Assembly: GCA_014762625.1 (NCBI GenBank)
Contig: JABURQ010000140.1
Span: 1-64,000 of the forward strand
Source: Planctomycetaceae bacterium
Lineage (GTDB): Bacteria; Planctomycetota; Planctomycetia; Planctomycetales; Planctomycetaceae
Reading direction: 5' to 3'
DNA: 64,000 nucleotides
A model generated the notes under the pieces. The model was not told the DNA's origin. It did no database searches and saw nothing but the letters and a program-made list of their open reading frames with translations. Below are positions 5,017 through 48,927 of the stretch, piece by piece. Position numbers and translations under genes: made by a program. Each line of letters starts with the position of its first letter. The stretch's first letter is position 1.

Positions 5017-5060
5017 TTAACCCACATTTCAACTTCTTCATTCTCTCCTCCGAGCGTCCC

Positions 5061-5714
5061 ATGTCGCTGATTCCGAATGCATTCCTGTTCGAGTCGCAAC
5101 AGACGATTCAAAAACTTCCCAAAAAGCCGGCCCGTCGAAATTCTCTCAAGCCGCTTTCTGGGAAATATGCACTCGATACACTCCAGACTCTCGATGACTT
5201 CACTCCGTTTGCGAGACTCTCTCTCGGCTGGCACCCCGAAGGATTGCAGATCGATTGTCGGGTGGAAGGCAAACAAGGCGCCCTGAAGTGTGACCCCGAT
5301 CAACCGACGACGTCGGACGGTTTGCATCTGTGGATCGATACCCGGAACACCCCCGGCGTCCATCGGGCTAACCGGTTCTGTCATCAGATTTCTGTCTGGC
5401 CTTCGGGGGGTGGAAAAAACAAACAGGAACCGATCGTGCAACAGGTCGAGATCGCCCGCTGCCGGGAGAAATCGCCTCTCGCCGATCCCGAGCTTTTCTG
5501 GGCTAAGTCCACGATTGAGAAGACCGGTTACGAACTTTCTGTCTGGATCCCGGCGGACGCCCTCAATGGTTACGATCCCGAGGAGAGTCCCGTCTGCGGA
5601 TTCTTTTACGCTGTCCGCGATCGGGAACTGGGATTGCAGACTCCCAGCGTCGGCGAAGAATTTCCCTTCGCAAGCGATCCAAGCTTATGGCACAGTATCG
5701 AGTTGACCGATTGA
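5061..5714 (+). CDS. CBM9-like / DOMON-like domain protein
   Basis: Protein of 217 residues without a signal peptide. The beta-rich core resembles the carbohydrate-binding-module-9-like fold often seen in planctomycetes: GLQIDCRVEG, then a SDGLHLWIDTR strand-turn, then GYELSVWIPADAL near the C-terminus. In that family the DGLHLWIDTR segment lines the ligand face. The ligand and role are unknown, and no catalytic residues stand out. It is divergent from the UvrA-like gene (45 bp apart) and only 40 bp ahead of the zinc-ribbon membrane protein, so it may be co-transcribed with the latter. Confidence 0.65.
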   Translation: MSLIPNAFLFESQQTIQKLPKKPARRNSLKPLSGKYALDTLQTLDDFTPFARLSLGWHPEGLQIDCRVEGKQGALKCDPDQPTTSDGLHLWIDTRNTPGVHRANRFCHQISVWPSGGGKNKQEPIVQQVEIARCREKSPLADPELFWAKSTIEKTGYELSVWIPADALNGYDPEESPVCGFFYAVRDRELGLQTPSVGEEFPFASDPSLWHSIELTD

Positions 5715-5754
5715 ATCTGAACGTGCAGAAACTGCCAGCGGGAGTGAGGAATCA

Positions 5755-6825
5755 ATGATTGAGTTTAATTGCCCATCATGTCAGGCATTGATTCGCGTCG
5801 GAGAGAAAGCGAGCGGCAAAAAAGGGACTTGTCCCTCGTGTCGGAAAAAGATTGTGGTTCCCGAAAAGTCTGTAACCCAGTCGCCTCCGGCGATCGACAC
5901 TCCGCCGATCCCCTCGAATCCTCCGGAGCAATCACAATCCGACAACCCACCGACATTCGATCCAGCCAACGTTCCGACGGATCCTCCCGCTGCATCAGCA
6001 GAGCCCGTGATCCAGATCAAACCGCAAACGAGCCCCACTCGGCGGAGACGAAAAGGTCGCCGACGATCCTCGAAAGGGGGGCTCTGGGTCCCGGTGCTGT
6101 GTGCGGGAATTCTCTTCGGGTTTATTGGTTGGTACTTTTTCCAAATCAATGCGGGACTCTCTCCCGAAGTCACCGGAACGGTTGTCGAATCACCGGAAAT
6201 TCCTCCCGGTTTGATTGCACGTGGTGACGTCACTGTGGATGGCCAACTGTACGAAAAAGTCCGCGAATCACTCGAATCGGAACAACTGAAACTTGTGGGA
6301 AGTGCCCAATTGGCCGACGTGACTCTCACGGCACAACAATCGGGGATCGTGACGACAGTCAAACCCGCCCCCGGCGCGATGTGTGTGCGTGTTTCTTTGA
6401 ACGACACCGATGTCGCCGACTACGTCTCCGAGCACGCCAAGGAACTCAATCAATATCGCATGCAGAACATTCAGGAAACCGCCGACGAGTTCATAACCGC
6501 CTGGGCCGCCGCGCTGGAAACCGGTGAGAAAACGGTTCCCAACCTGAGTAGGGTTCGCAATCAAATGGCCCTCGCGTCGGTCGTCAGCGGATTTGGATAC
6601 CACGTAGTTGCCTGGGACGGCAAGATCGCGTCGCCCTGTATCGGCGTCGGGAACTCGGGAGAATTGTATTTCGTCCTCAAGCCGGGAACCAAGTCGTTTA
6701 TCATTCGGGGACGCGATGTGGGTAGCGAAAGCGCCGGCTTTCCGGGGGAAATTGTGGTGAAGGTGGATCGTCCCGAAGCTTCCACCGCACCTCAACCGGC
6801 TCCACAAGAGCCCGAAGAAATGTAA
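5755..6825 (+). CDS. Zinc-ribbon membrane protein, function unknown
   Basis: Protein of 356 residues that I cannot assign to a functional family. An N-terminal zinc ribbon carries CPSC at residues 6-9 and a second CPSC around 27-30, the design seen at the head of many planctomycete proteins. A Pro/Ser/Thr-rich linker (~40-95) and a strongly basic patch (RRRRKGRRR) precede one transmembrane helix at about residues 108-128. The remaining ~225 residues would lie outside the membrane. A Pro/Gln/Glu-rich tail ends the protein. This is a single-pass topology with a cytosolic metal-binding head. It follows the CBM9-like gene at 40 bp and is followed by a long intergenic stretch. Confidence 0.7.
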   Translation: MIEFNCPSCQALIRVGEKASGKKGTCPSCRKKIVVPEKSVTQSPPAIDTPPIPSNPPEQSQSDNPPTFDPANVPTDPPAASAEPVIQIKPQTSPTRRRRKGRRRSSKGGLWVPVLCAGILFGFIGWYFFQINAGLSPEVTGTVVESPEIPPGLIARGDVTVDGQLYEKVRESLESEQLKLVGSAQLADVTLTAQQSGIVTTVKPAPGAMCVRVSLNDTDVADYVSEHAKELNQYRMQNIQETADEFITAWAAALETGEKTVPNLSRVRNQMALASVVSGFGYHVVAWDGKIASPCIGVGNSGELYFVLKPGTKSFIIRGRDVGSESAGFPGEIVVKVDRPEASTAPQPAPQEPEEM

Positions 6826-7103
6826 TCAACCACGCCTGGAGAGCGTCGATCCTGTTCGGTACGAACTCTGCGCATCGTTTCTATCTGGCTGGTGAAATCA
6901 TCAGGTCTTGTGGAGTTTGTTCTGGGTGCTTTGTACTTGGTTCTTGGCAGTCTGGACTCCAAAACCGAAGGACAAAAAACAAAGCACGAAATACGAATAA
7001 TCAAATTGCCAAAGATCGCGATGTGGATTACCGGGTTCCAAAATCGAATCACCCCGCACGCTAACTCTCGTAGGAGTTCGTTTACGAGACTAATCTTGGG
7101 TGG

Positions 7104-7127
7104 CACTGTGCGGCTTGCCCGCCAGTG
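7104..7127. repeat. Imperfect hairpin, GC-rich
   Basis: CACTG at 7104-7108 pairs with CAGTG at 7123-7127, with an inner CGG/CCG pairing around CTTG. From memory, similar CACTG...CGGCTTGC...CAGTG elements recur between genes in planctomycete genomes, so this may be a dispersed intergenic repeat. I cannot verify copy number here. Confidence 0.4.
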
Positions 7128-7236
7128 TTTGAGAGGGGCAGAACAAATGGAACGCCGATGACGCCGATCCAACGGATTGTCACAGGTTGGAAAAGAGAAC
7201 TCGCACAGCGGCGCGGCGACGCCGCGAACAAAGAAA

Positions 7237-7303
7237 GAACACTCATCTTCGCTAATCAACACTCGTCAGGAAAGTTGATCCAGATTAGCGATGATCAGTG
7301 TTT
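7237..7303. repeat. Inverted repeat, 21-nt arms
   Basis: The arm at 7237-7257 is the reverse complement of 7283-7303 with three mismatches, around a 25-nt loop. The core words are GATTAGCGA and AGTGTT. A partial third copy of the word (TTAGTGTTC, 7305-7313) follows. It could form a large hairpin in RNA or be a remnant of a dispersed repeat. Confidence 0.55.
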
Positions 7304-7501
7304 ATTAGTGTTCCTGCTTTCTTTGAGTCAGTAAGCCAGGAATCTGAAATCTCAACACTTCACACGGAAAACTGTTTTCCACCACCCAGCCGATTTCATT
7401 TTTGTCTCGATCCGGGGCTGCGGTCCGTTTAATCTGAAGGTCATGCTCGCCTCCACACGCTGCTCACTGACGTTGATTCAAGATCAGATTCAGGACCTGA
7501 G

Positions 7502-8866
7502 ATGAAATTACGATTCCCCCTTGTCTGCTTTAGTTTATTCTTGCTCTCGGGACTCCAGATCGCTTCCGCGGAAGAAGCTGTCTGGAAGGCGGGATCGGCG
7601 TTCGTTCGCATCACTCCCGACAAACCGATGTACATGGCCGGGTATGCCGCTCGTAACAAACCGTCCGAAGGCGTGGCCTCCGAACTGTATGCGAAGGCTC
7701 TCTATCTGGAAGATGCTGAGGGACACCGGGCGGCGATCGTGACGTTCGACCTGATCAGTGTGTTGAAAGAACTGCGTGACGGCGTCGCCAAAACAGTCGA
7801 AGCTCGATACAAGATCCCCGCTGCCGCGGTAATGCTGAACTGTTCCCACACTCATTGCGGGCCGGTGGTTCGCTCGCCGTCCAAGGCGATCCAGGATCTC
7901 GATTCTGAAAAAGTGAAGCAGGCGGTCGAGTATTCGCAGTGGCTCGAAAAGACGTTAATCGAACTCGTGGGAGCGGCGGTCGAAAACGCCGAGCCTTCGA
8001 CGGTCACCTATCATCGTTCCCGAGCCGCGTTCGCCATGAATCGACGCTTGCCGACCGATGCCGGGTTTCGGAATTCCCCGAATCCGGACGGGCCCGTCGA
8101 TCACGATGTGCCGGTGCTGAAAGTGGTGAACGCCGCGGGAGAACTGAAAACCATTCTCTTCGGGTATGCCTGCCATAACACCACGCTCTCGTTTTACGAA
8201 TTTTGCGGAGACTACGCCGGTTTCGCGCAAGCGGACATCGAACGCAATCATCCGGGAGTGGTGGCGATGTTCGTGATGGGTTGCGGCGGCGATCAGAATC
8301 CGTATCCGCGACGCACGCTCGATCTCGCGATCACGCATGGAAAAACTCTCGCAACCGCCGTGGAAGCGGCTTTGGAGACGCCGGCGATTCCGGTCAGCGG
8401 TCCGTTGACGGCTCAACTGGAAGAGGTCGAAGTGACGTACGCTCCGCCGCCCACGAAGGAAGAACTCGAAGCGCGTCTGGAAACGGGGAACAAATACGTC
8501 GTCCGACACGCGCAGCGACTGCTCACACAACTGGAAACCGAAGGCAAGCTCCGCGATAGCTATACTACGTTGGTGCAGACGTTTCAGTTCGGCGACGATT
8601 TGACCCTTATCGCCTTGCCGGGGGAGACGGTCGTCGACTTTTCCCTGCGACTCAAACGGGAACTCGCCGATCGACGGGTGTGGGTGGCCGGGTACAGTAA
8701 CGATGTGTTTGCCTACGTTCCCAGCAAGCGTGTGCTGCAGGAAGGGGGATACGAAGGAGGTGGCGCGTTAATTTACTTCACCGCCATTCTGCATCCCGGA
8801 CCGTTCGCCGACGATATCGAAGAACGGATCATCGATTCCGTTCACCGACAGTTGCAGCCGGAGTGA
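7502..8866 (+). CDS. Neutral/alkaline ceramidase-like secreted protein
   Basis: Exported protein of 454 residues. The signal peptide spans about residues 1-23 (hydrophobic LVCFSLFLLSG, cleavage near ASAEE). The fold starts with GSAFVRITP, the usual opening of the neutral/alkaline non-lysosomal ceramidase N-terminal domain. The metal-site motif SHTHCGP lies at 115-121. Characterised family members hydrolyse the amide bond of ceramide, but most planctomycete copies lack the C-terminal domain, as here, and may act on other lipids or amides. A second family member with 468 residues lies at 54176. The gene stands alone on its strand and is followed by the tetR-hlyD insert. Confidence 0.78.
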   Translation: MKLRFPLVCFSLFLLSGLQIASAEEAVWKAGSAFVRITPDKPMYMAGYAARNKPSEGVASELYAKALYLEDAEGHRAAIVTFDLISVLKELRDGVAKTVEARYKIPAAAVMLNCSHTHCGPVVRSPSKAIQDLDSEKVKQAVEYSQWLEKTLIELVGAAVENAEPSTVTYHRSRAAFAMNRRLPTDAGFRNSPNPDGPVDHDVPVLKVVNAAGELKTILFGYACHNTTLSFYEFCGDYAGFAQADIERNHPGVVAMFVMGCGGDQNPYPRRTLDLAITHGKTLATAVEAALETPAIPVSGPLTAQLEEVEVTYAPPPTKEELEARLETGNKYVVRHAQRLLTQLETEGKLRDSYTTLVQTFQFGDDLTLIALPGETVVDFSLRLKRELADRRVWVAGYSNDVFAYVPSKRVLQEGGYEGGGALIYFTAILHPGPFADDIEERIIDSVHRQLQPE

Positions 8867-8923
8867 TGGTGAGCCAAGGAGATTTCAGACGAGCTGTTGA
8901 GTAGGCAAGGCAATGTCTTTGAC

Positions 8924-8972
8924 TACTCCTCCCGGTCCGCGATCTTCAATTTGATCTCGTCGGAGTTCGCTC
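8924..8972. repeat. 49-bp direct repeat, left copy (duplicated macroglobulin gene end)
   Basis: 48 of 49 bases match 10987-11035; the single difference is A at 8949 versus G at 11012. The right copy is the natural 3' end of the alpha-2-macroglobulin gene. The left copy therefore looks like duplicated target DNA at the far side of an inserted tetR-hlyD segment. The last eight codons and the stop of tetR lie inside this copy, read in a different frame. Confidence 0.9.
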
Positions 8973-9605
8973 CGCTGACATTCCTGACAATAGAGTTTCC
9001 AATACAATCCGAGCGAGTTGTTCGGGGTTTCGATGAGCCACGATCTCGGTGTCGTCAAAATGACCGTCGAGAACGAGCATGGCGGCACCATGCAGTAACG
9101 ACCATCCAGCAAGCGTATGACGTTCCACGGCATTTCCTTTGAGCAAACCAGCATCTTCGCCCACCTTCAGTTCTGCGATCAAGAAGTCATAGGTGGCATC
9201 CTGTGCTGTTTCGAGTGCTTCGGTTCGATTGGCCATCACATCCCGAGAGAACATCACGCGGTAGTAACCAGTCTGCGTCACTGCAAACTCCATATACGCC
9301 GTCCCCAAGGCCAGAATACGCTTTTCGGGCGAGCGTTTGGGGATCGTCTGCACTTTCAACTGTTTCAAAAGGAGCTGTTGGCCTTCGATGGCCAATTTCA
9401 CCAACAGATCGGCTCTGCTGGAAAAATGACGATACGGGGCGTTGTGAGAAACTTGGGCGACCCGTGCCGCTTCGCGTAACGTGAAGCCTTCCAAGCCTTT
9501 GGACTCTACGATCTTCAACGCTGCCTGGAGAAGACTTTGACGAAGGTTGCCGTGGTGATAACTCTCGGAAGTTCCACGACTCGAATTTGTTGAATGATCA
9601 CCCAT
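8946..9605 (-). CDS. TetR-family transcriptional repressor
   Basis: Regulator of 219 residues from the ATG at 9605 (MGDHSTNSS). A longer frame to 9761 would run through the operators, so I prefer the shorter start. The N-terminal helix-turn-helix is typical: HGNLRQSLLQAAL, then GFTLREAARVAQVS and APYRHFSSRADLL (about residues 17-70). The C-terminal half should bind a small ligand and dimerise. It is divergent from the hlyD-like gene. Twin operator-like palindromes between them suggest it represses both promoters. Oddity: its C-terminal residues ERTPTRSN are encoded by the left 49-bp repeat, so the original end of the protein was probably replaced when the segment was inserted. Confidence 0.88.
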   Translation of the reverse strand: MGDHSTNSSRGTSESYHHGNLRQSLLQAALKIVESKGLEGFTLREAARVAQVSHNAPYRHFSSRADLLVKLAIEGQQLLLKQLKVQTIPKRSPEKRILALGTAYMEFAVTQTGYYRVMFSRDVMANRTEALETAQDATYDFLIAELKVGEDAGLLKGNAVERHTLAGWSLLHGAAMLVLDGHFDDTEIVAHRNPEQLARIVLETLLSGMSAERTPTRSN

Positions 9606-9625
9606 CGGAAGATTCTCGACATTTT

Positions 9626-9642
9626 TGTTGACAGTGTCAACA
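9626..9642. promoter_or_regulatory. Operator 1, perfect palindrome
   Basis: TGTTGACAGTGTCAACA is a perfect inverted repeat with 7-bp arms and a 3-bp centre. It covers the -35 box of the hlyD-side promoter and lies 21 bp upstream of the tetR start. It is the most likely binding site of the adjacent TetR protein. Confidence 0.75.
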
Positions 9643-9656
9643 TGAGAGCTTATGTT
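9628..9656 (+). promoter_or_regulatory. Sigma-70-like promoter for the hlyD-like gene
   Basis: TTGACA at 9628-9633, a 17-bp spacer and TATGTT at 9651-9656. Both boxes overlap the operator palindromes, which fits tight repression. Confidence 0.6.
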
Positions 9657-9667
9657 GCTGTCGTCAA
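9639..9667 (-). promoter_or_regulatory. Mirror-image promoter for tetR
   Basis: On the minus strand TTGACG (9667-9662), a 17-bp spacer and CATGTT (9644-9639). The -10 box is poor. The layout mirrors the hlyD promoter, so the two promoters overlap almost completely. Confidence 0.45.
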
Positions 9668-9669
9668 CA
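9653..9669. promoter_or_regulatory. Operator 2, imperfect palindrome
   Basis: TGTTGCTGTCGTCAACA matches operator 1 in both outer arms with two changes in the left arm. The centre-to-centre distance to operator 1 is 27 bp. It overlaps the -10 box of the hlyD-side promoter and the -35 box of the tetR-side promoter. Confidence 0.68.
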
Positions 9670-9748
9670 TTGTTTGCCCGCGGAAAATTTCGAGGAATCG
9701 CGTTTTCTTCGGGATGTGGTACAGCCAGCAACAATGGAAAGGTTCGAG

Positions 9749-10972
9749 ATGAAAGCTGCACACAACAGAGTTGGTAAAATTTCTCTCAGTACGAGATTCG
9801 TCCTTAGCCGTCTGCTATTGGCGGTCTTGACATTGCTCATTAGTTCGCCGTTGCCGGCTCAGACGTCGGAAACCTCTGCGGTTCAGGCAACGGGTGTTCT
9901 GGAAAGCTCGGAAGTCGAGCTTTTACAGGCATCTGTACTCGACGGGACACGCATCGTGAAAGTGATTCCTCATGGAAGCAGAGTTACCCAAGAAACTCCT
10001 CTTCTGGAATTTGAACATCGGCAGTCCCCAGTTGAAAAAGCCAGGCGACAACTCCTCAAAGCTGAGCTCGAATTGCGATCCACACTAAAAGAACTTGAGG
10101 TCCTGGAACATTTCACCAGGCCACGAACGCTTGCTGAATTACAGGAACGTGAAAAGGAAGCAAGCAGAAATGTGGAGAGAACGAAACTATCGGGTGAAGC
10201 ACAACTCGCGATGAAAAAAGCCCAAGTCGCCACTCTTACGAATGAATACCACATTGTTCTTTCCCGATACGAAAAATTGAAAGAGCTCGAAGAAATCAGA
10301 CGGGACGAATTACTGCTGGAAGAATATGCGATTCGTTCGGTTCATTTAGAGGCGAAGCTGAAAACCGCGCTCAAGGAAGTTGAACAACAATGCGTGCAGA
10401 ATGAGCGCCAACTGGCTGAAGCAAATTTCGAGACGAAACTCGCAAAGCTCGATCTCATACAGTACCAAGAGGGTGACTATATAGCACAAAAAGAAGCTCT
10501 TGAAACTCAAATAGAAGCAGCGAAAGATAAGCTCTCACGACAACGTGAGAAGTATGAAAAGATAATTCAAGCGGTCCGGCAGAAGCAAATATTGGCTCCC
10601 GTTGACGGCATCGTCTTCCACCATGATTCTCGTATAGCTCACAGTAAGCCGTTTAGTTTGGAACCGGGGTCTCGCGTAAAACAAGGACAGGTACTGCTCA
10701 AGTTCGCCAGCCTCGAGTCGAGACAGGTCCGGGTTCCCGTCTGCGAATCAAACATCCTGCGAATAAATGAAGGTCAATCTGCAACCGTCCACTTCACGGC
10801 TCTTCCGACTCAAGAGTTTTCCGCAACGGTGATATCCATTTCGGAAGTTCCTCGATTCGAAAAGCTAACTTCGGATGGGTGCGTGAACTATGATGTCATT
10901 CTCGACATGACTGATCTTCCCGCTGAGTTAAAGCTGGGAATGACATGCGAAGTCAAATTCTTGTCGGATTGA
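9749..10972 (+). CDS. HlyD-type periplasmic adaptor (membrane fusion) protein
   Basis: Adaptor subunit of 407 residues from the ATG at 9749, preceded by GGAAAGG; upstream in-frame starts (TTG 9674, ATG 9734) are less likely. An N-terminal signal or anchor (LLLAVLTLLIS) comes first. A short lipoyl-like half follows, then a long alpha-helical hairpin (about residues 90-290, rich in Glu/Lys/Leu). The second lipoyl half opens with KQILAPVDGIVFHHDS, and a beta-barrel domain with EGQSATVHFTALP ends the protein. Adaptors of this kind bridge an inner-membrane pump and an outer-membrane channel. No permease, ATPase or TolC-like gene is next to it, so its partner must be encoded elsewhere, if it has one. 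The gene looks more AT-rich than its neighbours. It ends 14 bp before the right 49-bp repeat. Confidence 0.85.
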   Translation: MKAAHNRVGKISLSTRFVLSRLLLAVLTLLISSPLPAQTSETSAVQATGVLESSEVELLQASVLDGTRIVKVIPHGSRVTQETPLLEFEHRQSPVEKARRQLLKAELELRSTLKELEVLEHFTRPRTLAELQEREKEASRNVERTKLSGEAQLAMKKAQVATLTNEYHIVLSRYEKLKELEEIRRDELLLEEYAIRSVHLEAKLKTALKEVEQQCVQNERQLAEANFETKLAKLDLIQYQEGDYIAQKEALETQIEAAKDKLSRQREKYEKIIQAVRQKQILAPVDGIVFHHDSRIAHSKPFSLEPGSRVKQGQVLLKFASLESRQVRVPVCESNILRINEGQSATVHFTALPTQEFSATVISISEVPRFEKLTSDGCVNYDVILDMTDLPAELKLGMTCEVKFLSD

Positions 10973-10985
10973 GCCTTCAGGTTCG

Positions 10986-13900
10986 TTACTCCTCCCGGTC
11001 CGCGATCTTCAGTTTGATCTCGTCGGAGTTCGCTCGCAATTCCGGAGCATACATCGCTTCCGCCACGGTCGGCAGGGCGCTGAACTTACCCGGAATTTCG
11101 GCTCGCATCCGGTAGCTGGTCGAGTGCCTGCCGCGCGGCAAAGCCCGCACGAAGATCGCCACTTTCTCATCGCGGAATTCGCGATAAGATCCGATCCGGT
11201 CCCCCGAGTAGCCGCTGGTGAGTGTGACTGGTTCGAAGCCCGCCGCTTTGTGATCTTCGAAGACGAGGTATTCGTAGTCGTTTTTCGATTCGATAATCAG
11301 CTCGACTTCGACCAGATCGCCCGACTCCAACTCGGCGAGATTGACGAGTTCTTCCTTGCGGTAACGTTCTTCCTGCTGGGAGACGGCTTGTCCGCGCGAG
11401 CCGGCGACTTTGCCGTCCCGGTCGTCGCGAGTCAATTTGTAGTATTTCCGCTCGACTTTGATTTCGAGTCCCGCTTTGGTGATGAAGTCTTCGAGAGTGA
11501 AGTTGGTCAGGTAGGCGTTGAAATAAAGCGGTCCTTCTCCTTTGCGTTTCAGTTCCAACGTATGCTTTCCGGATTCAACGTCCGCGCCGGTGAGAACGAA
11601 CTTGTTGTCGAACGTGAAGAGGTCTTCGCCGGTGACTTTGACTTCCTTCCGTTTCTTTCCGTCCAGCCAGACTTCGATCGTCATATCCGGTTTGTCTTCG
11701 TCGCTGGCAACCAGATATTCGGCCAGGGCTTCGATCGCGTAGGCCGTGTCGCGGGTGCTGTTCCAATAGGTGGAATGCTTGCGATTATTGAGCAGATACT
11801 TGACCAGCCGAGAGGCTTTGACTCCTTGTGGATCGGTTTTCGAAAGCAGCTTGAGATAGAAGGCGTTGGCTTCAATCGCGCTGCCGTACCAGTACCACCA
11901 TCCGGACGCTTCGTCGTTGAGATAAGCGGTTTCGTTTTCTTCATCCTGGACGAGGAACTGATCGATGTTGCGAACGATCATTTCCAGTCGTTCCGCCGAG
12001 TTCTGTTTGTGCAGAGCCAGACCGTAGAGCGCTTTGGAATAGAGGGCGAGCGACACGCGATCGCGGTAGAGGTAATCGTCCATCCGATCGTCGACGATGT
12101 CGGCGTCCACGAGCACCATATAGATTAAGGCATCGAGATTGTCGGCTTTGAGTTTATAGCGTTTCCCTTTGCGTTCTTCGGGATCGAGTTCGCCGACTTT
12201 CAACAGTTCGATCTGCTGGTCCTGATAGTTCTTCAGCCATTGCACGCCTTTTTGCAGCGTTCCCGGCACGACGGCCACGCCGTTCTGCTGGGCAATTTGC
12301 AGACCATGGACGACGGTCGCCGTTGTGTGCGGCCAGGAATGTTCGCCCCAGCCGGAGAACCAGCCCCAACCGCCATCGGTGAGCTGCATCTGCGTGAGAC
12401 GTTGAACGCCGTCATCGACCATTTTGGAAACCTCGCCTTCATCGAAGACTGGATTGCGATCCCAGCGTTTCCATTGTTTGGCACGTTCGGGATCGTCGCC
12501 GATTTCCTGGGCGTTCAGGTTGGTTCGTTTTTCCTGAATCGCTTTCAGGTCGAGGTCCATTCGTTTGAGAATATTCTGCGTGATGACGGTCGGCAGGAAA
12601 CGATTGAGCGTCTGTTCGGTGCAGCCGTACGGGTAATCGACCAGATACGGCAACGCATCGACCATCGCTCCCGCGAGCGTCGGAGAGTAACGGACTTCGA
12701 GTCGCGACTGCTCGGGACGACGGTCGTCCGGAACTGTCATGACGACTTGAGCGGAGTCCTGATTATGTCGGATGACGCCGGTGTACGAATCGGTTTTCAG
12801 GATGCCGTGGACGTAGACCGGGAAGGACATTTCGACGGCATCCGATTCGACGTCGGTGAGTCCTTTCACGCGGATCGTCACTTCCCCTTCCTCGACCGCT
12901 TTGACGCGCCAATCGACGCGTGTTTCTCCATCGGCGGCGACGTTCACCGTTCGCACCACGTCGTCCATTGGTTGTAACTGTCCGCCTTCCAATTCCAGTT
13001 GGACCTCCACATCCTTGGCCGCATCCAGGTAGTTATGCACGTTTGCCGAAAGAATGACTTCGTCCTTCTGCGTGAAGAAACGAGGAGCTTGTAAGCGGAC
13101 GAGCAGATTTTTCGTGGTGATGAATTCGGCCGAACCCTCGCCGACTTCAGCGTCCGCTCCCATCGTCCAGGTGCGGACTTTCCACGTCGTTAAACTGTCG
13201 GGGAGCGGAAATTCGATCTCGGCAGTGCCGTCCGCATCGGTGGTGACGTTCGTCGTCCAGTACGCCGTATCGGCGAAGTTCTTCCGGATCGTCGGTTGGA
13301 CCTGTGGTGCGGACTGGGTTCCTCCTCCACCAGGGGCACCACCACCGAATCCGGCGACATCTCCGACTTCCGCTGCCATTTCGGACATGGGGGCCGCGCT
13401 TTTGGCCATTGCCGATCCTCGCAACATCTGCTTGCCTTCAGCGCCCCAGCGATCCCCGAGATACAATCTGACCACCCCGTCGTTTTCCGAATGATTCATC
13501 GTGACCAATCGATCGATGATGTTGCCGAAGACGCCGAGTTGCTGCATCCGTTCTTCTTGGTTTTTATAAATCGGAGCTGTCCCCGTATTCAGCGAGGATG
13601 CCAGATTTCGAGAGTAGTGACGCCGCCATTTCCAGAAGAAGTCGCGGATGTCGGCGATGTTGGACCCGCCGGAAATGTACTCGATGCTTTTGTCGTAGAC
13701 GGTGAGAATGGTCGAACCGAGGAACGGCTCTCCCTCTTCGTCGGTCAGTTTCACTTTCAGTTTGGATTCTTTGCCGGGGAGGTATTCCGGTTGTTCCGAG
13801 GCGACTTCGACATTCACAATTTTTCCGGACGGCGGAACGATGATTTCCCGCGCGACGTTATGCACGCGACCGTTAAAAATGGTAACCGCTTCGACGAAGA

Positions 13901-16900
13901 AGTTCGGGCGATCTTTCTCGCCGATGTCGAGCGTGTGGACGGTACTTTTCCCGGACATTTTCAGCACGACCGGTCGGGAGGCGACGCCGTTTTCAGAACG
14001 CTCGAATAACAAAACCGTTGCGCCGACGCGGTTAGTGTTGATCAGGAGTTCGACCTTTTCTCCCGGTTGATATTCTTTCCGGTCGGTGATCAGTTCGAGG
14101 TCGTTGAAACGGAAGTCGGCGGCGTCGAAATTATCGCCTCGAACCAGGAAGACATACGCCCCTTCGATTTCGTTTCCTTTGGAATCGGTCACCGTGTGCG
14201 AAAGTCGATATTGTCCGGCGGAGTTCAGTTTGACTTTCAGAACCGCTTCTCCCTGGGCGTCGGTATCGAGTTCCCATTCTTCGACGGCGGTTTCTGTGGG
14301 CTTTCCGTCTGCGTCGTATTGAATTCGATATAGCTTCGCCACGCCGTCACCCGAGACCGGTTTCTGGTCGAGCGTTTGTGCTTTGAAGCGGAACTCGGCG
14401 GTTTCGCCTTCCTGAAAGTAGCCGCGATTCGGCCAGACGAAAACTTTGAACGGCTCGCGGGAGACCAGGACATTCCCCTGTCCGACAATCGTGCGACGGG
14501 ATTGATCGACGACCTCGGCGGTGATGGAGTATTGGTGATCCTGATCGCCGTGAACGGCTTTGGCGAGCGAGGTATCGATTTCGATTTCGACTGTGCCGTC
14601 GGGACCGATCTCGACTTCGTCCTCCATCACGATTTCGGGTGGATCCTGCCTCCAGCCCCACCAGCTTTGGATCGGCGCCATACAACCCCAACGATGCCAG
14701 CCGGGATACCAGTTGTAATCGTACGCAAACCACCAATAGCCGGGCTCGTAAAACCAATCCCACGGCTGTTGCGGGAACCAGCGTGCGTCGTGTTGCGAGC
14801 GAGTGACTTTGTAGTGGACCTTCGCATTGGTGACCGGCGCTCCGAAGAAATAGCGGGCTTCGATTTTCGCCGGGATCACCTCACCCAACTTGACCGGTTC
14901 GGACGGGGCTTCGACGGTGACTTCGTATTCCGGTTTTTTGTATTCCTCGACGCGGAACGATCCGCTTCCCTGGAACCGATGCGGTTTGCGCAGAATCACC
15001 TGATACTGCCCGAGCATTGCTTCGTCTTCGAGTTTCAGTTCGTCCGCGTAACCGCCGAACTCATCCAGTTGGATTTCCTTTTCGACGATCTTCTCGCCGC
15101 GCGGATTCTGGATATCGAGCATCATCGTCTCGTTCTTCCAGGGATCCTGGAAATTGGGATCGTAGGTCGGCGTGCGAACCCAAACCTTGAATTGCGCGGT
15201 ATCGCCGGGCCGATAGATGGGACGATCGGAGACGACGTAAACTTTGGGGTTGGTCGGATGACTCGACGAACGGGAGCCGTCGTAAAAGTGGTCGAAGCCG
15301 TAGAATGCGAAGCGGTCCCCCTTGCGAGCGATCAGAACCCAGTTGAAATTGCGTTCGACCTGCTCGTTGGAGGTGACGATCAAGCCATTCTCGTCGGTGA
15401 AGCGAGCAAACTGCTTGAATGTTGTGTTCCAGATGGCATCATTTCGATCCGTGTGATATCCGAAGAATTCAACGTTTACTTTTTCGATTTCTTTCCCGTT
15501 GGTGGAATCGGAGACGTAGACAATTTCGCCGTTCTCGATTCGTTTTTTGACAATGGCCAGATCGCTGACCCAGACCACCATCCGGACTTCGTTGCCGTCC
15601 GTCATCTTCCCGGTCACGAGATAAGCGCCCGCATTTTCCAGCGGAGCGGTGACGTTGACTAAGTCGTCGCGATGCCCCGCCGGGGGATCGAGTTCGACGG
15701 TCCACGAGGCGACGGTTTCGCGGAGGTATTTCTTCTGATCCTGTTGAACGACCCGTTCGCCGATGTTGTGGAGATAAAGACGTCGCGCGTCGGGGCGGGT
15801 AATGCCGCGCGTCACCCGTTTGATGTAATCTTTGACATCTTCAACAAGTTGGGCGGCGTCCAGTTTTTGTGCGGTGAATTTGACTTCGTTTCCGTTTCGG
15901 TAGCGGAGGGGGATTTCGACCGGCTGCCCGGCGGCGACAACGCCCATTCCTTCAAACTGGCACCAGTTGTCGACGATCTGATCGAGCGCTTTCTGGCGGT
16001 ACGGATTATTGGCAGTGCCGGGGCCGAACTTTTCAATCGCTTCCTTCCACATCTCGGCGGCGCGCGGATATTGGCGACGATTGGTAAAGATTCGAGCCAG
16101 GGTGTCCATCGCCGAGCTTTGGTAAGAATTCTCCTCCTCCGCCAGCGATTGGTAGATCGCGATGAAATTGAACTCTTCCGGCAGCGTCCAGCGTTTGATG
16201 CCGGTGGCGAGTTGGGCCGACGTTTCGGTGTCTTTCAAGGTGTGAACGGCGTACGGTCCGGAAACCTCTTCGCTCTCCTCTTCCTCGCCTTCCTCCGCCT
16301 TCAAGGGGATTACCGAACCGCGACCGCTCATGGTCTGAACGCCGAATTGTCCGTAGAGAAAACCGGCCCAGGTTTGCATCGTTTCCCATTTGGCAGCGGG
16401 CGTGACGCGGGCGATTTCCGCAAGGCACCAGCGATAGCGTTCGCCATCGTTGAGAGAATCTTCAAAAGAGTCCGGCACCTGATAGTAGACGGGGTTTCCG
16501 TCTTCATCGACCGGCGCGCCGAGTGGGACATTGCGAGCCCCGTAATAGACCGTTTGATCTTCGTAGTCGGGAAGCGTTTCCAGGTCAGTCAGCACTTGCA
16601 GCTTCCAGGCGTCGCGACCGTACCGGTTCCGCATGAGGCCGGAAGAGAACTTTCGATACAGATCGACCACTTCACCCGGCGCATTTTTTTCCTCTTCCGG
16701 AGAGATCAATCGCCGCGCATCGTTCAGCCACATCATGGCCTGAGTGCGATCCCGTTTTTCGGAGGAAACCCAAGTCCCTCCGCCTCGCTGATTCCCCCGT
16801 TGGAATTCCTGTGCGATGATGGAGCCGTAATGCGGAACGGACAGAATCGCTTTCGAGGCAGAGGTCAGCGCGCGCCAGTTTTCGTCGTGCAGTTCGACAA

Positions 16901-17174
16901 ACTCCTTCAAATACCCGTCAATTTCCGCAGCGCGATTGAGTCGCTGGAGGCACTGAATTCCTCTCTCAAGGTCTGAACCGACCTGCTTCGGGTCGGTCTC
17001 CTCATCGAGCGAGAGTTCCCGAAAGATTTCATATGCATCGCGAAAGTTTCCATCCTTTTGATGCTTTTGAGCGGTGGTGCGACGAGACTCCGCGGAAGGT
17101 TCTTGCGCCGTGAGGTACCACGTGAAGAGGAGCGACAGACTGAACACGACGACAGAAATGAGCTTGCGTGACAT
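10986..17174 (-). CDS. Bacterial alpha-2-macroglobulin-family protein
   Basis: Very large exported protein of about 2062 residues. The ATG at 17174 is preferred over a TTG two codons upstream. A signal sequence (VVFSLSLLFTWYLTA) is followed by a tetratricopeptide-like helical region, then a series of macroglobulin beta-sandwich domains. YVVSDRPIYRPGDTAQFKVW (~residues 645-665) is the family's MG-domain signature. A Trp/Tyr-rich insertion (around 14640-14770) and a Gly-rich bait-like linker (GFGGGAPGGGG) precede the C-terminal part. The thioester motif CTEQ is intact (Cys about residue 1518, Gln three later) in the sequence YPYGCTEQT. Such proteins are thought to trap foreign proteases in the periplasm. 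No penicillin-binding-protein 1C partner is adjacent. Its 3' end was duplicated by the neighbouring insertion. Confidence 0.9.
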   Translation of the reverse strand: MSRKLISVVVFSLSLLFTWYLTAQEPSAESRRTTAQKHQKDGNFRDAYEIFRELSLDEETDPKQVGSDLERGIQCLQRLNRAAEIDGYLKEFVELHDENWRALTSASKAILSVPHYGSIIAQEFQRGNQRGGGTWVSSEKRDRTQAMMWLNDARRLISPEEEKNAPGEVVDLYRKFSSGLMRNRYGRDAWKLQVLTDLETLPDYEDQTVYYGARNVPLGAPVDEDGNPVYYQVPDSFEDSLNDGERYRWCLAEIARVTPAAKWETMQTWAGFLYGQFGVQTMSGRGSVIPLKAEEGEEEESEEVSGPYAVHTLKDTETSAQLATGIKRWTLPEEFNFIAIYQSLAEEENSYQSSAMDTLARIFTNRRQYPRAAEMWKEAIEKFGPGTANNPYRQKALDQIVDNWCQFEGMGVVAAGQPVEIPLRYRNGNEVKFTAQKLDAAQLVEDVKDYIKRVTRGITRPDARRLYLHNIGERVVQQDQKKYLRETVASWTVELDPPAGHRDDLVNVTAPLENAGAYLVTGKMTDGNEVRMVVWVSDLAIVKKRIENGEIVYVSDSTNGKEIEKVNVEFFGYHTDRNDAIWNTTFKQFARFTDENGLIVTSNEQVERNFNWVLIARKGDRFAFYGFDHFYDGSRSSSHPTNPKVYVVSDRPIYRPGDTAQFKVWVRTPTYDPNFQDPWKNETMMLDIQNPRGEKIVEKEIQLDEFGGYADELKLEDEAMLGQYQVILRKPHRFQGSGSFRVEEYKKPEYEVTVEAPSEPVKLGEVIPAKIEARYFFGAPVTNAKVHYKVTRSQHDARWFPQQPWDWFYEPGYWWFAYDYNWYPGWHRWGCMAPIQSWWGWRQDPPEIVMEDEVEIGPDGTVEIEIDTSLAKAVHGDQDHQYSITAEVVDQSRRTIVGQGNVLVSREPFKVFVWPNRGYFQEGETAEFRFKAQTLDQKPVSGDGVAKLYRIQYDADGKPTETAVEEWELDTDAQGEAVLKVKLNSAGQYRLSHTVTDSKGNEIEGAYVFLVRGDNFDAADFRFNDLELITDRKEYQPGEKVELLINTNRVGATVLLFERSENGVASRPVVLKMSGKSTVHTLDIGEKDRPNFFVEAVTIFNGRVHNVAREIIVPPSGKIVNVEVASEQPEYLPGKESKLKVKLTDEEGEPFLGSTILTVYDKSIEYISGGSNIADIRDFFWKWRRHYSRNLASSLNTGTAPIYKNQEERMQQLGVFGNIIDRLVTMNHSENDGVVRLYLGDRWGAEGKQMLRGSAMAKSAAPMSEMAAEVGDVAGFGGGAPGGGGTQSAPQVQPTIRKNFADTAYWTTNVTTDADGTAEIEFPLPDSLTTWKVRTWTMGADAEVGEGSAEFITTKNLLVRLQAPRFFTQKDEVILSANVHNYLDAAKDVEVQLELEGGQLQPMDDVVRTVNVAADGETRVDWRVKAVEEGEVTIRVKGLTDVESDAVEMSFPVYVHGILKTDSYTGVIRHNQDSAQVVMTVPDDRRPEQSRLEVRYSPTLAGAMVDALPYLVDYPYGCTEQTLNRFLPTVITQNILKRMDLDLKAIQEKRTNLNAQEIGDDPERAKQWKRWDRNPVFDEGEVSKMVDDGVQRLTQMQLTDGGWGWFSGWGEHSWPHTTATVVHGLQIAQQNGVAVVPGTLQKGVQWLKNYQDQQIELLKVGELDPEERKGKRYKLKADNLDALIYMVLVDADIVDDRMDDYLYRDRVSLALYSKALYGLALHKQNSAERLEMIVRNIDQFLVQDEENETAYLNDEASGWWYWYGSAIEANAFYLKLLSKTDPQGVKASRLVKYLLNNRKHSTYWNSTRDTAYAIEALAEYLVASDEDKPDMTIEVWLDGKKRKEVKVTGEDLFTFDNKFVLTGADVESGKHTLELKRKGEGPLYFNAYLTNFTLEDFITKAGLEIKVERKYYKLTRDDRDGKVAGSRGQAVSQQEERYRKEELVNLAELESGDLVEVELIIESKNDYEYLVFEDHKAAGFEPVTLTSGYSGDRIGSYREFRDEKVAIFVRALPRGRHSTSYRMRAEIPGKFSALPTVAEAMYAPELRANSDEIKLKIADREE
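10987..11035. repeat. 49-bp direct repeat, right copy (native macroglobulin gene end)
   Basis: This copy is part of the alpha-2-macroglobulin coding sequence and includes two bases of its stop codon. See the left copy at 8924-8972. The interval between the copies is about 2.0 kb and contains exactly two genes. Confidence 0.9.
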
Positions 17175-17440
17175 GGCCAAAGGCTTTCGGAATAGCGGCG
17201 TTCGACGGGATGTGTGGATGTGACTGATTATGGCCGTCGGCGATTGATCGCACCAGACCGGCTTGCTTCTTGAGAAGTTCTCGTCTCGCGAAAAGTTCCT
17301 GAAAAATGGTGACGTCTGTTGTTTTTTCAGAAAACCAGGCTGAATTCGTGAGCGTTATGAAGGGAATGAGGTCTCGCTCCGCCCGGTGACAGTGTTACAC
17401 TGACCGCTACCACACACTTTGCCACCGGGATACGTTGATC

Positions 17441-18874
17441 ATGACATTTGAATGGGGACTTTACATCACCGCGCTGGGGTATCTGGCGACTCTGGTGTTA
17501 ATTCCCATCGTGCTCCTCACTCCAAAACGCCATTCGGTTTCTTCCGTCGCGTGGATTCTCACCATCGTCACGCTTCCGATTTTCGGCGGACTGCTGTTTC
17601 TCGTCTTCGGACTGACGCGACTCTCGCGACACGCGGAACGAAAACGCCGCGCCACCGCCCAACTCCATCGGCTCCTCCCCGAATTGCAGGCTTCCTCGCA
17701 TCGTGTGTCGGAGCAGGATCCGCCGATCTATCGTCGGTTGATGAAACTCGCCAATCGACTCACCAAACAACGTCCGCTCCACGGCAATCGCGTTGAAGTT
17801 CTCAACGATACCAATCGCACCTTCGGGCAGATCCAGGAGGCGATCCGCGACGCGGACGAAACCATCCATCTGGAGTATTACATCTGGCAACCGGACCAAA
17901 CCGGAATTCAGTTACGCGACTTATTGATCAAAAAGGCGCAAGAAGGAGTTCGCGTCCGGTTTCTATACGACACTGTGGGGTCGTTATGGCTGGGAAAGAA
18001 ATTCCTGAAGCCGATGACCGAAGCCGGGATCCAGGTCGCCGAGTTTCTGCCCGGATCGAGTTTTCGGGAACGCTGGTCTCTTAACCTGCGCAACCATCGC
18101 AAGATTGTCGTGGTGGATGGAAAGATCGGATTCACCGGCGGGATGAATATCGGCGATGAATATCTGGGACGCGATCCGCGGGTCGGTTACTGGAGAGATA
18201 CCCACCTACGGATCGAAGGGGCCTGCGTCCTGCAGTTGCAGTCGATCTTTTCGGAAGACTGGTTCTACGCCACCGGCGAAGAACTCACTCACACCACACT
18301 CTTCCCGAAACCGGAAACCTCCGGGAACACCTTGGCGCAAGTCCTGGCGGGAGAACCTCGCGGCACCCAGGATGTCTTTTATACTTTACTCTTCGCCGCC
18401 ATTACCGATGCCGCGGAGAGCGTTACCGTCACTACGTCATACTTTGTTCCGCCGGTCGCGTTGGCGGTGGCTTTGGAAACTGCCGCTTTGTCGGGAGTGA
18501 AGGTGAGGCTCTTGCTGCCCCGGCGTTCGGCTCATCAATGGACCGTCTGGGCGGCTCGGTCGTACTACCATTCGCTGCTTGAAGCGGGAGTGCGGATCTT
18601 TGAATATACTCGAGGGCAGTTGCATCCGAAAACGGTCGTCGTGGACGGTATCTGGTCGCTGGTCGGCACTCCGAATTTCGATACCCGTTCTCTGGAACTG
18701 AACTTTGAAGTGGCTGTGGCGGCGTACGATCAACGCATCGCCGATGTCCTCGAACATCAGTTCGAGCAGGATATGGAATGGGCGGTGGAAATTCTGTTAC
18801 CCGAATGGGATCGACGCTCCCAAAGTCAGCGTCTGTTACAGAATTTCTGTCGGCTGTTTGCCCCGGTGATGTAG
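17441..18874 (+). CDS. cls: Cardiolipin synthase (phospholipase D superfamily)
   Basis: Membrane enzyme of about 477 residues that makes cardiolipin from phosphatidylglycerol. Two N-terminal transmembrane helices (about 5-25 and 35-57) are followed by two PLD domains. The first HKD motif reads NHRKIVVVDGKIGFTGGMN. The second reads LHPKTVVVDGIWSLVGTPN followed by FDTRSLELNFE. Both carry the catalytic His, Lys and downstream Asp/Asn. Length and architecture fit the ClsA type. The ATG at 17441 is preferred over a TTG six bases earlier. It is divergent from the macroglobulin gene and convergent with the formylglycine-generating enzyme gene (5 bp between the stops). Confidence 0.92.
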   Translation: MTFEWGLYITALGYLATLVLIPIVLLTPKRHSVSSVAWILTIVTLPIFGGLLFLVFGLTRLSRHAERKRRATAQLHRLLPELQASSHRVSEQDPPIYRRLMKLANRLTKQRPLHGNRVEVLNDTNRTFGQIQEAIRDADETIHLEYYIWQPDQTGIQLRDLLIKKAQEGVRVRFLYDTVGSLWLGKKFLKPMTEAGIQVAEFLPGSSFRERWSLNLRNHRKIVVVDGKIGFTGGMNIGDEYLGRDPRVGYWRDTHLRIEGACVLQLQSIFSEDWFYATGEELTHTTLFPKPETSGNTLAQVLAGEPRGTQDVFYTLLFAAITDAAESVTVTTSYFVPPVALAVALETAALSGVKVRLLLPRRSAHQWTVWAARSYYHSLLEAGVRIFEYTRGQLHPKTVVVDGIWSLVGTPNFDTRSLELNFEVAVAAYDQRIADVLEHQFEQDMEWAVEILLPEWDRRSQSQRLLQNFCRLFAPVM

Positions 18875-47988: not shown

Positions 47989-48059
47989 TGTTTCGCTGAG
48001 GAGTCGAGCCTCATCCTGCAGCTTCGGAGGCTGCCGTGCATCCCTCACACTCGCGAAAC
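47989..48059 (-). tRNA. tRNA-Arg (CCG)
   Basis: 71 nt. Acceptor GTTTCGC/GCGAAAC is perfect, the anticodon arm GCAGC/GCTGC has loop CTCCGAA giving CCG, and the T arm TGAGG/CCTCA is perfect. Oddities: position 8 is G instead of U, and the D loop (GAGGGAT) lacks the usual A14. The 3' CCA is not encoded. Confidence 0.78.
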
Positions 48060-48856: not shown

Positions 48857-48927
48857 TACCTCGCGCGGGAGTCGAACCCCGTCTTGCGGTTTCGTAGACC
48901 GCCGTGCATCCCTCACACTCGCAAGAT
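48857..48927 (-). tRNA. tRNA-Arg (ACG), irregular
   Basis: 71 nt. The anticodon loop CTACGAA sits on a perfect GCGGT/ACCGC stem. The acceptor ATCTTGC/GCGAGGT pairs fully with two G-U wobbles. The T stem CGGGG/CCCGC has two mismatches at its base (C-C, G-G). The whole D-arm region is identical to that of tRNA-Arg(CCG), including G8, so the two Arg genes are related duplicates in their 5' halves. Confidence 0.65.

Follow-up and report, generated by a model that had tools for sequence, protein, structure and literature searches.

The alpha-2-macroglobulin locus and its duplicated gene end

The DNA analyzed here, referred to as the window, is the whole 64-kb stretch of a Planctomycetaceae bacterium. 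It contains a bacterial alpha-2-macroglobulin gene encoding 2,064 residues, behind which a TetR-type repressor gene and an HlyD-type adaptor gene lie between two copies of the macroglobulin gene end. The window was compared with the genome to which it belongs (G000; 6,230,375 bases in 208 contigs) and with two congeners, G001 and G002. The features of the locus are as follows.

7502-8866, + strand: neutral/alkaline ceramidase gene (ORF and Pfam; the G001 ortholog is on another contig)
8923-8972, - strand: left repeat copy (8924-8972 plus base 8923), a relict macroglobulin tail with stop codon TAG at 8923-8925 (repeat comparison and frame reading)
8946-9605, - strand: tetR repressor gene, with its last eight codons and stop from the left copy (ORF; PF00440, PF13305; homolog alignment)
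8973-10985, no strand: acquired segment (the insert), bounded by the two copies; neither congener gave a tetR or hlyD match
9626-9642, no strand: candidate TetR operator, palindrome TGTTGACAGTGTCAACA (the palindrome TTGAC-N3-GTCAA is also upstream of five of nine tetR homologs examined)
9663-9669, no strand: candidate second operator half-site, GTCAACA (in those five homologs, too, a half-site lies about 27 to 33 nt away, start to start)
9749-10972, + strand: hlyD-type periplasmic adaptor gene, AT-rich, with no adjoining MacB_PCD gene (ORF; PF16576, PF13437)
10986-17180, - strand: alpha-2-macroglobulin gene, its native tail being the 3' end at 10986-11035 (ORF; Pfam bMG10, MG2, A2M, A2M_BRD, TED; orthologs in both congeners)
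10987-11035, - strand: right repeat copy, the functional macroglobulin tail with stop codon TAA at 10986-10988 (repeat comparison and frame reading with the adjacent base)

The direct repeat (8924-8972 and 10987-11035; start-to-start distance, 2,063 nt) is 49 nt long with 48 identical positions, and a search of the entire 6.23-Mb genome found it at these two places only. Pairing by chance is excluded (blastn E value of 4e-20 within 5 kb), and besides this pair a single direct repeat of at least 30 nt was detected in the window with a seed of 16 (47993-48054 and 48861-48922; 62 nt, 81% identity, 868 nt apart). When the neighboring base is added, both copies are complete macroglobulin tails with a stop codon, and the two differences in the 48 aligned coding bases are both synonymous. 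The sole mismatch within the 49 nt (left A and right G on the plus strand) is synonymous in the macroglobulin frame. Its left-copy base is also found in both congeners, and thus it is the right, functional copy that carries a derived or imported base. The sequences outside the copies are unrelated, with 8 of 30 bases identical past the stop codon and 7 of 30 before the start of the common tail. Because the copies are so alike, the case looks young, and both junctions and the chimeric end of TetR can still be read.

An earlier note on this DNA had described the 49-bp repeat with its one mismatch, and most of what it reported for the locus was borne out. As judged from the ORF, the Pfam domains, and the congener orthologs, the true 3' end of the macroglobulin gene is the right copy, and exactly two Pfam-supported, divergent genes, tetR (-) and hlyD (+), are bracketed by the copies. 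The end of TetR was rewritten as proposed: its C terminus reads LLSGMSA followed by ERTPTRSN, and these final eight residues and the stop codon lie inside the left copy. The adaptor gene is AT-rich, with a GC content of 47.6% that corresponds to the 2.6th percentile of 272 ORFs from the same genome. No transposase or integrase was detected in the insert by Pfam scan. Similarly, there was no recombinase-like Pfam match in 13 neighboring ORFs, and no inverted repeat pairing the insert ends was found in a search that covered repeats of at least 20 nt.

The ceramidase gene and the spacer at 8867-8923 are presumed to be the old downstream flank of the macroglobulin gene. Behind the other macroglobulin genes, ceramidase was not found except for weak matches (23 to 26%) in L081 and L221. 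Window blocks 2435-6774, 7556-8867, and 10985-18872 are on three separate contigs in G001. In G002, the first and third blocks are on two contigs and the ceramidase block has no match. The macroglobulin gene of G001 is followed by an ORF that resembles an FkbM-type methyltransferase by the look of its translation, and the comparison with G002 is limited to the 484 nt behind the gene.

Two repeats elsewhere in the window were also observed. The region at 6909-7385 belongs to an intergenic repeat family with dozens of matches (about 69 to 95%) across the same genome and shorter matches in both congeners, and this family is probably a self-spreading noncoding element. Positions 1-143 are 97% identical to the end of another contig of the genome (C91), so that the window begins in a repeat.

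The repressor and adaptor genes of the acquired segment

In six aligned TetR homologs, the protein ends 3 to about 35 residues past an LLxG(I/M/L) motif, and these differing distances suggest that the native end of TetR is variable and probably short. The GC content of tetR is 52.0% (14.7th percentile of the 272 ORFs). TetR matches at an E value of 1e-15 were present in 11 of 170 family genomes, the window's own included, and the best of the others had 57% identity. There was no match in either congener. Matches in 150 of the 72,556 plasmid records searched were all below 60% identity, and no relatives in viral contigs were confirmed with a pattern method that reaches close relatives only.

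The operator check covered nine homologs, with L075, one of the eleven TetR matches, left out. The palindrome and half-site shared by the window and five of these homologs suggest that the repressor arrived with its own candidate operator, which lies between tetR and hlyD. Three of the operator-sharing tetR homologs (L067, L068, and L071) adjoin frames that resemble CDP-alcohol phosphatidyltransferases, as judged by reading the translations and not by a family search, and this tetR family may therefore control different neighbors.

The adaptor gene had matches in 3 of 170 family genomes (E value of 1e-20) and 2 of 392 phylum genomes (E value of 1e-15), with the window's own genome included both times and with at most 10 and 4 candidates, respectively, scored per listed genome. 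There was no match in either congener or in the 72,556 plasmid records, and the pattern method, which reaches close relatives only, found no relatives in viral contigs or genome contigs. Within these searches, hlyD had no close relative. Three of its weak homologs were examined, one of them a paralog from the same genome, and in each the adaptor gene comes after a MacB_PCD gene. The window hlyD has no such gene beside it, which suggests that the window adaptor lacks that partner. It might serve an efflux system encoded at another locus, with its own expression under TetR control. In L161, L162, and L163, which represent three genomes and include the paralog, a lone MacB_PCD-domain gene precedes the HlyD-type adaptor gene, possibly as a split MacB-like system.

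Tail copies behind other macroglobulin genes

Parallel cases were sought in 141 macroglobulin loci, 139 of which had distinct tails (two repeated a tail) and 130 of which had at least 500 nt downstream. Each tail was searched against up to 5 kb of downstream sequence. The loci were drawn from part of the genomes with a macroglobulin match, and the genome-contig matches were the best 80 of 337. Loci L078 and L082, which share their contigs with the G002 and G001 loci, were dropped before the counts, as were the short loci of the first search (L012 to L041), most of which had been refetched at greater length or were already among L079 to L157. L031, L039, L040, and L041 are absent from the final counts; no copy was reported there, and they reach at most 1.5 kb downstream (L039 almost none). 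Six macroglobulins among the best 80 of the 337 matches (L079, L084, L099, L112, L126, and L150) are 63 to 68% identical to that of the window, in records labeled Deltaproteobacteria, Lentisphaerae, Desulfobacterales, or Desulfobacteraceae, two of which (L099 and L150) are titled chromosome. Either wide lateral transfer or mislabeled bins would account for this.

A second, direct copy of the tail within 5 kb downstream, scoring 85 bits or more, was found for 4 of the 139 distinct macroglobulin ends. The four cases, with the upstream limit of the copy counted back from its stop codon, are as follows.

Window: upstream limit, 49 nt; after the stop codon, 8/30 bases alike
L085: copy of 84 nt, 88% identity, with an in-frame stop inside; upstream limit, 88 nt; after the stop codon, 7/30 alike; insert with a HicA-type toxin gene (PF07927), preceded by a small ORF without a Pfam match that is a HicB antitoxin by its look
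L105: copy of 130 and 39 nt, 82 and 87% identity, with deletions; upstream limit, about 235 nt; after the stop codon, 4/30 alike; insert with a 93-residue ORF without a Pfam match
L109: copy of 65 nt, 91% identity; upstream limit, 98 nt; after the stop codon, 9/30 alike; 2.1-kb insert containing a 366-residue ORF that has no Pfam match

Searches of whole genomes with tblastn recovered the same three tail copies in L085, L105, and L109. The remaining downstream matches, one direct and seven inverted, scored at most 31 bits. The four loci are in different lineages and have a common layout, in which the gene and its stop codon are followed by the insert, a partial tail with a stop codon, and then the flank. 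The stop codon is at the same position in both copies at all four loci. At three of them (window, L085, and L105), the copies remain similar as far as the stop codon and diverge within about 3 nt of it. L109 differs: its strong match breaks off 33 nt short of the stop codon, and 17 of the final 36 bases are identical, with both frames open to the same stop. Each of the three copies tested (window, L085, and L109) was closest, within the set, to its own native tail. The feature that recurs in the four sequences is the site, and the cargo differs.

A paralogous macroglobulin gene as the source of the tail was ruled out, because one full-length macroglobulin match per genome was found in the window's genome and in the genomes of L085, L105, and L109. 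One further tail fragment (G038, contig C77) sits at a contig end.

In order to compare macroglobulin tails with those of other genes, downstream copies were counted at 60 bits or more. Copies were found for 4 of 127 macroglobulin tails versus 6 of 720 other tails (one-sided Fisher P = 0.049), or for 3 of 126 versus 6 of 720 without the index case (P = 0.14). When two G001 ORFs opposite a long open frame were dropped, the other tails gave 4 of 718 (P = 0.02; 0.07 without the index case). By a post hoc judgment, neither a tandem paralog (L275) nor an intergenic-type repeat (C194) counts as a tail scar, which leaves two, both in L112. Such exclusions strengthen the enrichment, but they were decided on after the matches had been seen. 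Within 421 kb of the window's own genome, a copy was nearby for 3 of 302 gene tails (that of the window and two on C194) and for 0 of 294 gene heads. The enrichment behind macroglobulin genes over other genes is suggestive only; recurrence is claimed here, and a hot spot is not proven. The two genes in L112 (7734-8762 and 9688-13185) each have their own tail copied downstream, and one of these copies runs past the stop codon into repeated intergenic sequence.

How the segment may have been acquired

The explanation preferred here, to which a probability of just under one half (about 0.48) is given, is that the macroglobulin tail served as the point of entry for a DNA fragment from a relative, on which a macroglobulin 3' end was followed by hlyD and then tetR. 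By homologous pairing within the conserved coding part of the tail, the resident gene would have been joined to the downstream genes of the donor. The other end of this fragment, which lay just within the C terminus of tetR, would have been joined without homology 49 nt before the macroglobulin stop codon, and the old tail of the resident with its old flank, the spacer and ceramidase gene, would have been left behind as the left copy. The fragment might have been circularized by end joining and then have entered by one crossover, or the event might have been a homology-facilitated illegitimate recombination. In either case, the nonhomologous joint would fall at a variable point of the tail and cut the incoming DNA at random, here inside tetR. 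The layout, the boundaries of the copies, the rewritten end of TetR, and the three parallel cases are observations; the donor, the direction of the event, the crossover, and the end joining are inferred.

The boundaries of the copies are consistent with this sequence of events. Pairing between two macroglobulin alleles would end at the stop codon because the flanks of the gene are not conserved even between congeners, and the similarity between the congener macroglobulins likewise stops there. The fusion of the distal insert gene to the tail is as expected of a nonhomologous joint. The layout would fit one junction made by homology and another made without it, in that the common stretch ends at the stop codon, only 7 to 8 of 30 bases are alike beyond its edges, and tetR is fused at the joint; a donor sequence would be needed to decide which of the two junctions was the homologous one. 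In addition, there were fewer nonsynonymous differences between copy and native tail than a duplicate-and-decay simulation predicts (combined P = 0.005 at kappa 1 and 0.04 at kappa 3), a shortage carried mainly by L109, the only one of the four loci significant singly. An earlier, cruder synonymy test with smaller P values was superseded by this simulation.

Comparable products have been obtained experimentally. According to one report (PMC3240628), most clones obtained with linearized DNA that was homologous to the 3' end of lacZ alone had partial duplications of that end (by PCR, 56 of 60 clones; 109 to 950 bp in 14 sequenced clones), ascribed to a recircularized molecule and one crossover, and the other four clones were homology-facilitated illegitimate events with deletion.

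A staggered-cut insertion with a strict long target duplication, in which an unknown enzyme cut the macroglobulin end with a wide stagger, tetR and hlyD entered, and gap filling doubled the 49 bp, would produce the same layout. The layout corresponds to a class known from restriction-modification genes of Helicobacter (PMC1643837 and PMC3031569), and the 98% likeness of the copies, the HicA toxin-type gene in L085, and the closeness of the copies to their own native tails all agree with it. However, such an insertion could end anywhere past the stop codon without damage to the gene, so that an edge at the stop codon in three of four loci, and near it in the fourth, is unexpected. Furthermore, the insert ends inside its own tetR gene, and the ORFs scanned around it gave no recombinase-like match. 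Thus, a strict target duplication seems unlikely, and homology-anchored integration by the conserved coding tail appears to fit these sequences better. The earlier note had proposed an insertion with a long target duplication or recombination of a circular cassette. Acquisition at the macroglobulin 3' end is supported, and long target duplication is a fair description of the result, but once L085, L105, and L109 are taken into account, an event anchored by homology is favored.

It is less probable still that the left copy is filler from a template switch, in which a polymerase repairing a break at the end of tetR used 49 nt of the macroglobulin tail, 2 kb distant, as its template before the ceramidase side was rejoined. 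The common orientation, the nearness of the source, and the exact fusion of tetR at the junction would be accounted for, but it would not be explained why copying halted at the stop codon or close to it in all four loci, or why the intervening genes differ. The failure to find Ku in the window's genome, with a search that was positive in 1 of 14 control genomes, is a further point for template switching, and under homology-anchored integration it means that end joining would have to be Ku-independent. A tandem duplication followed by loss was rejected, since it would need a deletion ending at the stop codon.

Genomic islands inserted at gene ends usually have a copy of the gene end on the distal side and the intact gene on the proximal side, as is the case in the window. 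A site-specific island with the tail as attachment core, its integrase lost or acting in trans, is nevertheless very unlikely. The core would differ in length from 49 to about 235 nt among the cases, the inserts are unrelated to one another, no integrase match was found in the inserts or in the surrounding ORFs scanned, and the plasmid records (no hlyD match, and tetR matches all below 60% identity) and viral contigs (no relative of either gene by the pattern method) give no sign of such an island. A fixed attachment core with an integrase was not found, nor were the marks of a transposon or insertion sequence, namely, inverted repeats of 20 nt or more pairing the insert ends or a transposase in the insert. 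A mobile tetR-hlyD cassette, of the kind for which the earlier note suggested a search, is not supported, because no further site with the pair and its own flanking repeats turned up in the records and contigs searched. No relative was found with tetR-hlyD at this place, and the repeat is not spread over other sites of the genome, either of which would have spoken against the insertion proposed in that note.

An assembly artifact or chimeric contig is highly improbable. The genome is a draft in 208 contigs, but a 49-bp repeat is spanned by ordinary short reads, and the copies in L085 and L105 (82 to 88% identity) are too diverged for assembly duplicates.

Several points weigh against homology-anchored integration. 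Neither a donor nor an empty site was found in the loci and genomes searched. In the sampled set, no tetR or hlyD match (E value of 1e-3) lies within 5 kb behind 137 other macroglobulin ends. The empty site predicted by the earlier note did not appear in the two congeners, which have different DNA behind the macroglobulin gene and either have the ceramidase gene on another contig (G001) or have no ceramidase match (G002), or in two other genomes of the genus of L109; the genus of L085 is represented in the search set by the L085 genome alone. Gene order is fluid between the window and its congeners, and an empty site would therefore not be recognizable there. The stop boundary is sharp in three cases and not in the fourth, L109. 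Because the copies are nearest to their own native tails, the comparison does not demonstrate a foreign allele, and the inner stop of the L085 copy and the deletions of the L105 copy are as decay would give. Moreover, a homology of 49 nt is short for a crossover.

Relation to known insertions and implications

The kind of event seen here has precedents, each of which differs from it in some respect. Insertion with long target duplication is a known class from Helicobacter, credited to Nobusato et al. 2000 in PMC1643837, PMC3031569, and PMC4978471. As there, a gene unit in the window lies between long, variable direct repeats of target sequence without a mobility gene. The window differs from the Helicobacter cases in that its repeat stops at the stop codon or close to it, its inserted genes are not a restriction-modification unit, and no empty allele was found. 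The partial-duplication single-crossover and homology-facilitated products of PMC3240628 are similar in having gene-3'-end homology on one side, a nonhomologous joint on the other, and a partly duplicated gene end. However, those came from a laboratory plasmid in Escherichia coli with 109 to 950 bp, compared to 49 bp at a natural locus with no known donor, and the true homology-facilitated illegitimate events gave deletions, not duplications. In Vibrio T6SS clusters, for which homology-facilitated illegitimate recombination was proposed by the authors (PMC5361080), orphan effector 3' ends and immunity-gene arrays show that genes enter at a shared gene while the displaced 3' end and the old downstream gene remain. 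In those clusters, the part that is exchanged lies downstream of the anchor and the 3' end is altered, whereas the anchor in the window is the conserved tail and the protein stays as it was. Direct repeats at borders of this sort are in themselves not unusual, given that 10 to 18% of small variable segments in three species reportedly have flanking direct repeats, most of them below 30 bp in length (PMC2884548).

In a limited literature search, none of the titles listed dealt with gene insertion behind bacterial macroglobulin genes. The kind of event is known, and its recurrence behind macroglobulin in four parallel cases and the boundary at the stop codon are, as far as could be seen, new. 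It is a tentative and rather doubtful extension of these results that the conserved macroglobulin 3' coding tail is a recurrent, recombinase-free landing site, where genes of other lineages become hooked behind the stop codon via tail homology and the relict tail remains as a datable scar.

The uptake of single genes by bacteria without a mobile element has so far mostly been inferred. A relict gene tail that ends at a stop codon shows where the joint lies and which homology may have directed it, and any genome can be searched for such tails. If general, such scars would allow homology-anchored gene acquisition behind any conserved gene to be counted in single genomes, with no need for an empty relative.
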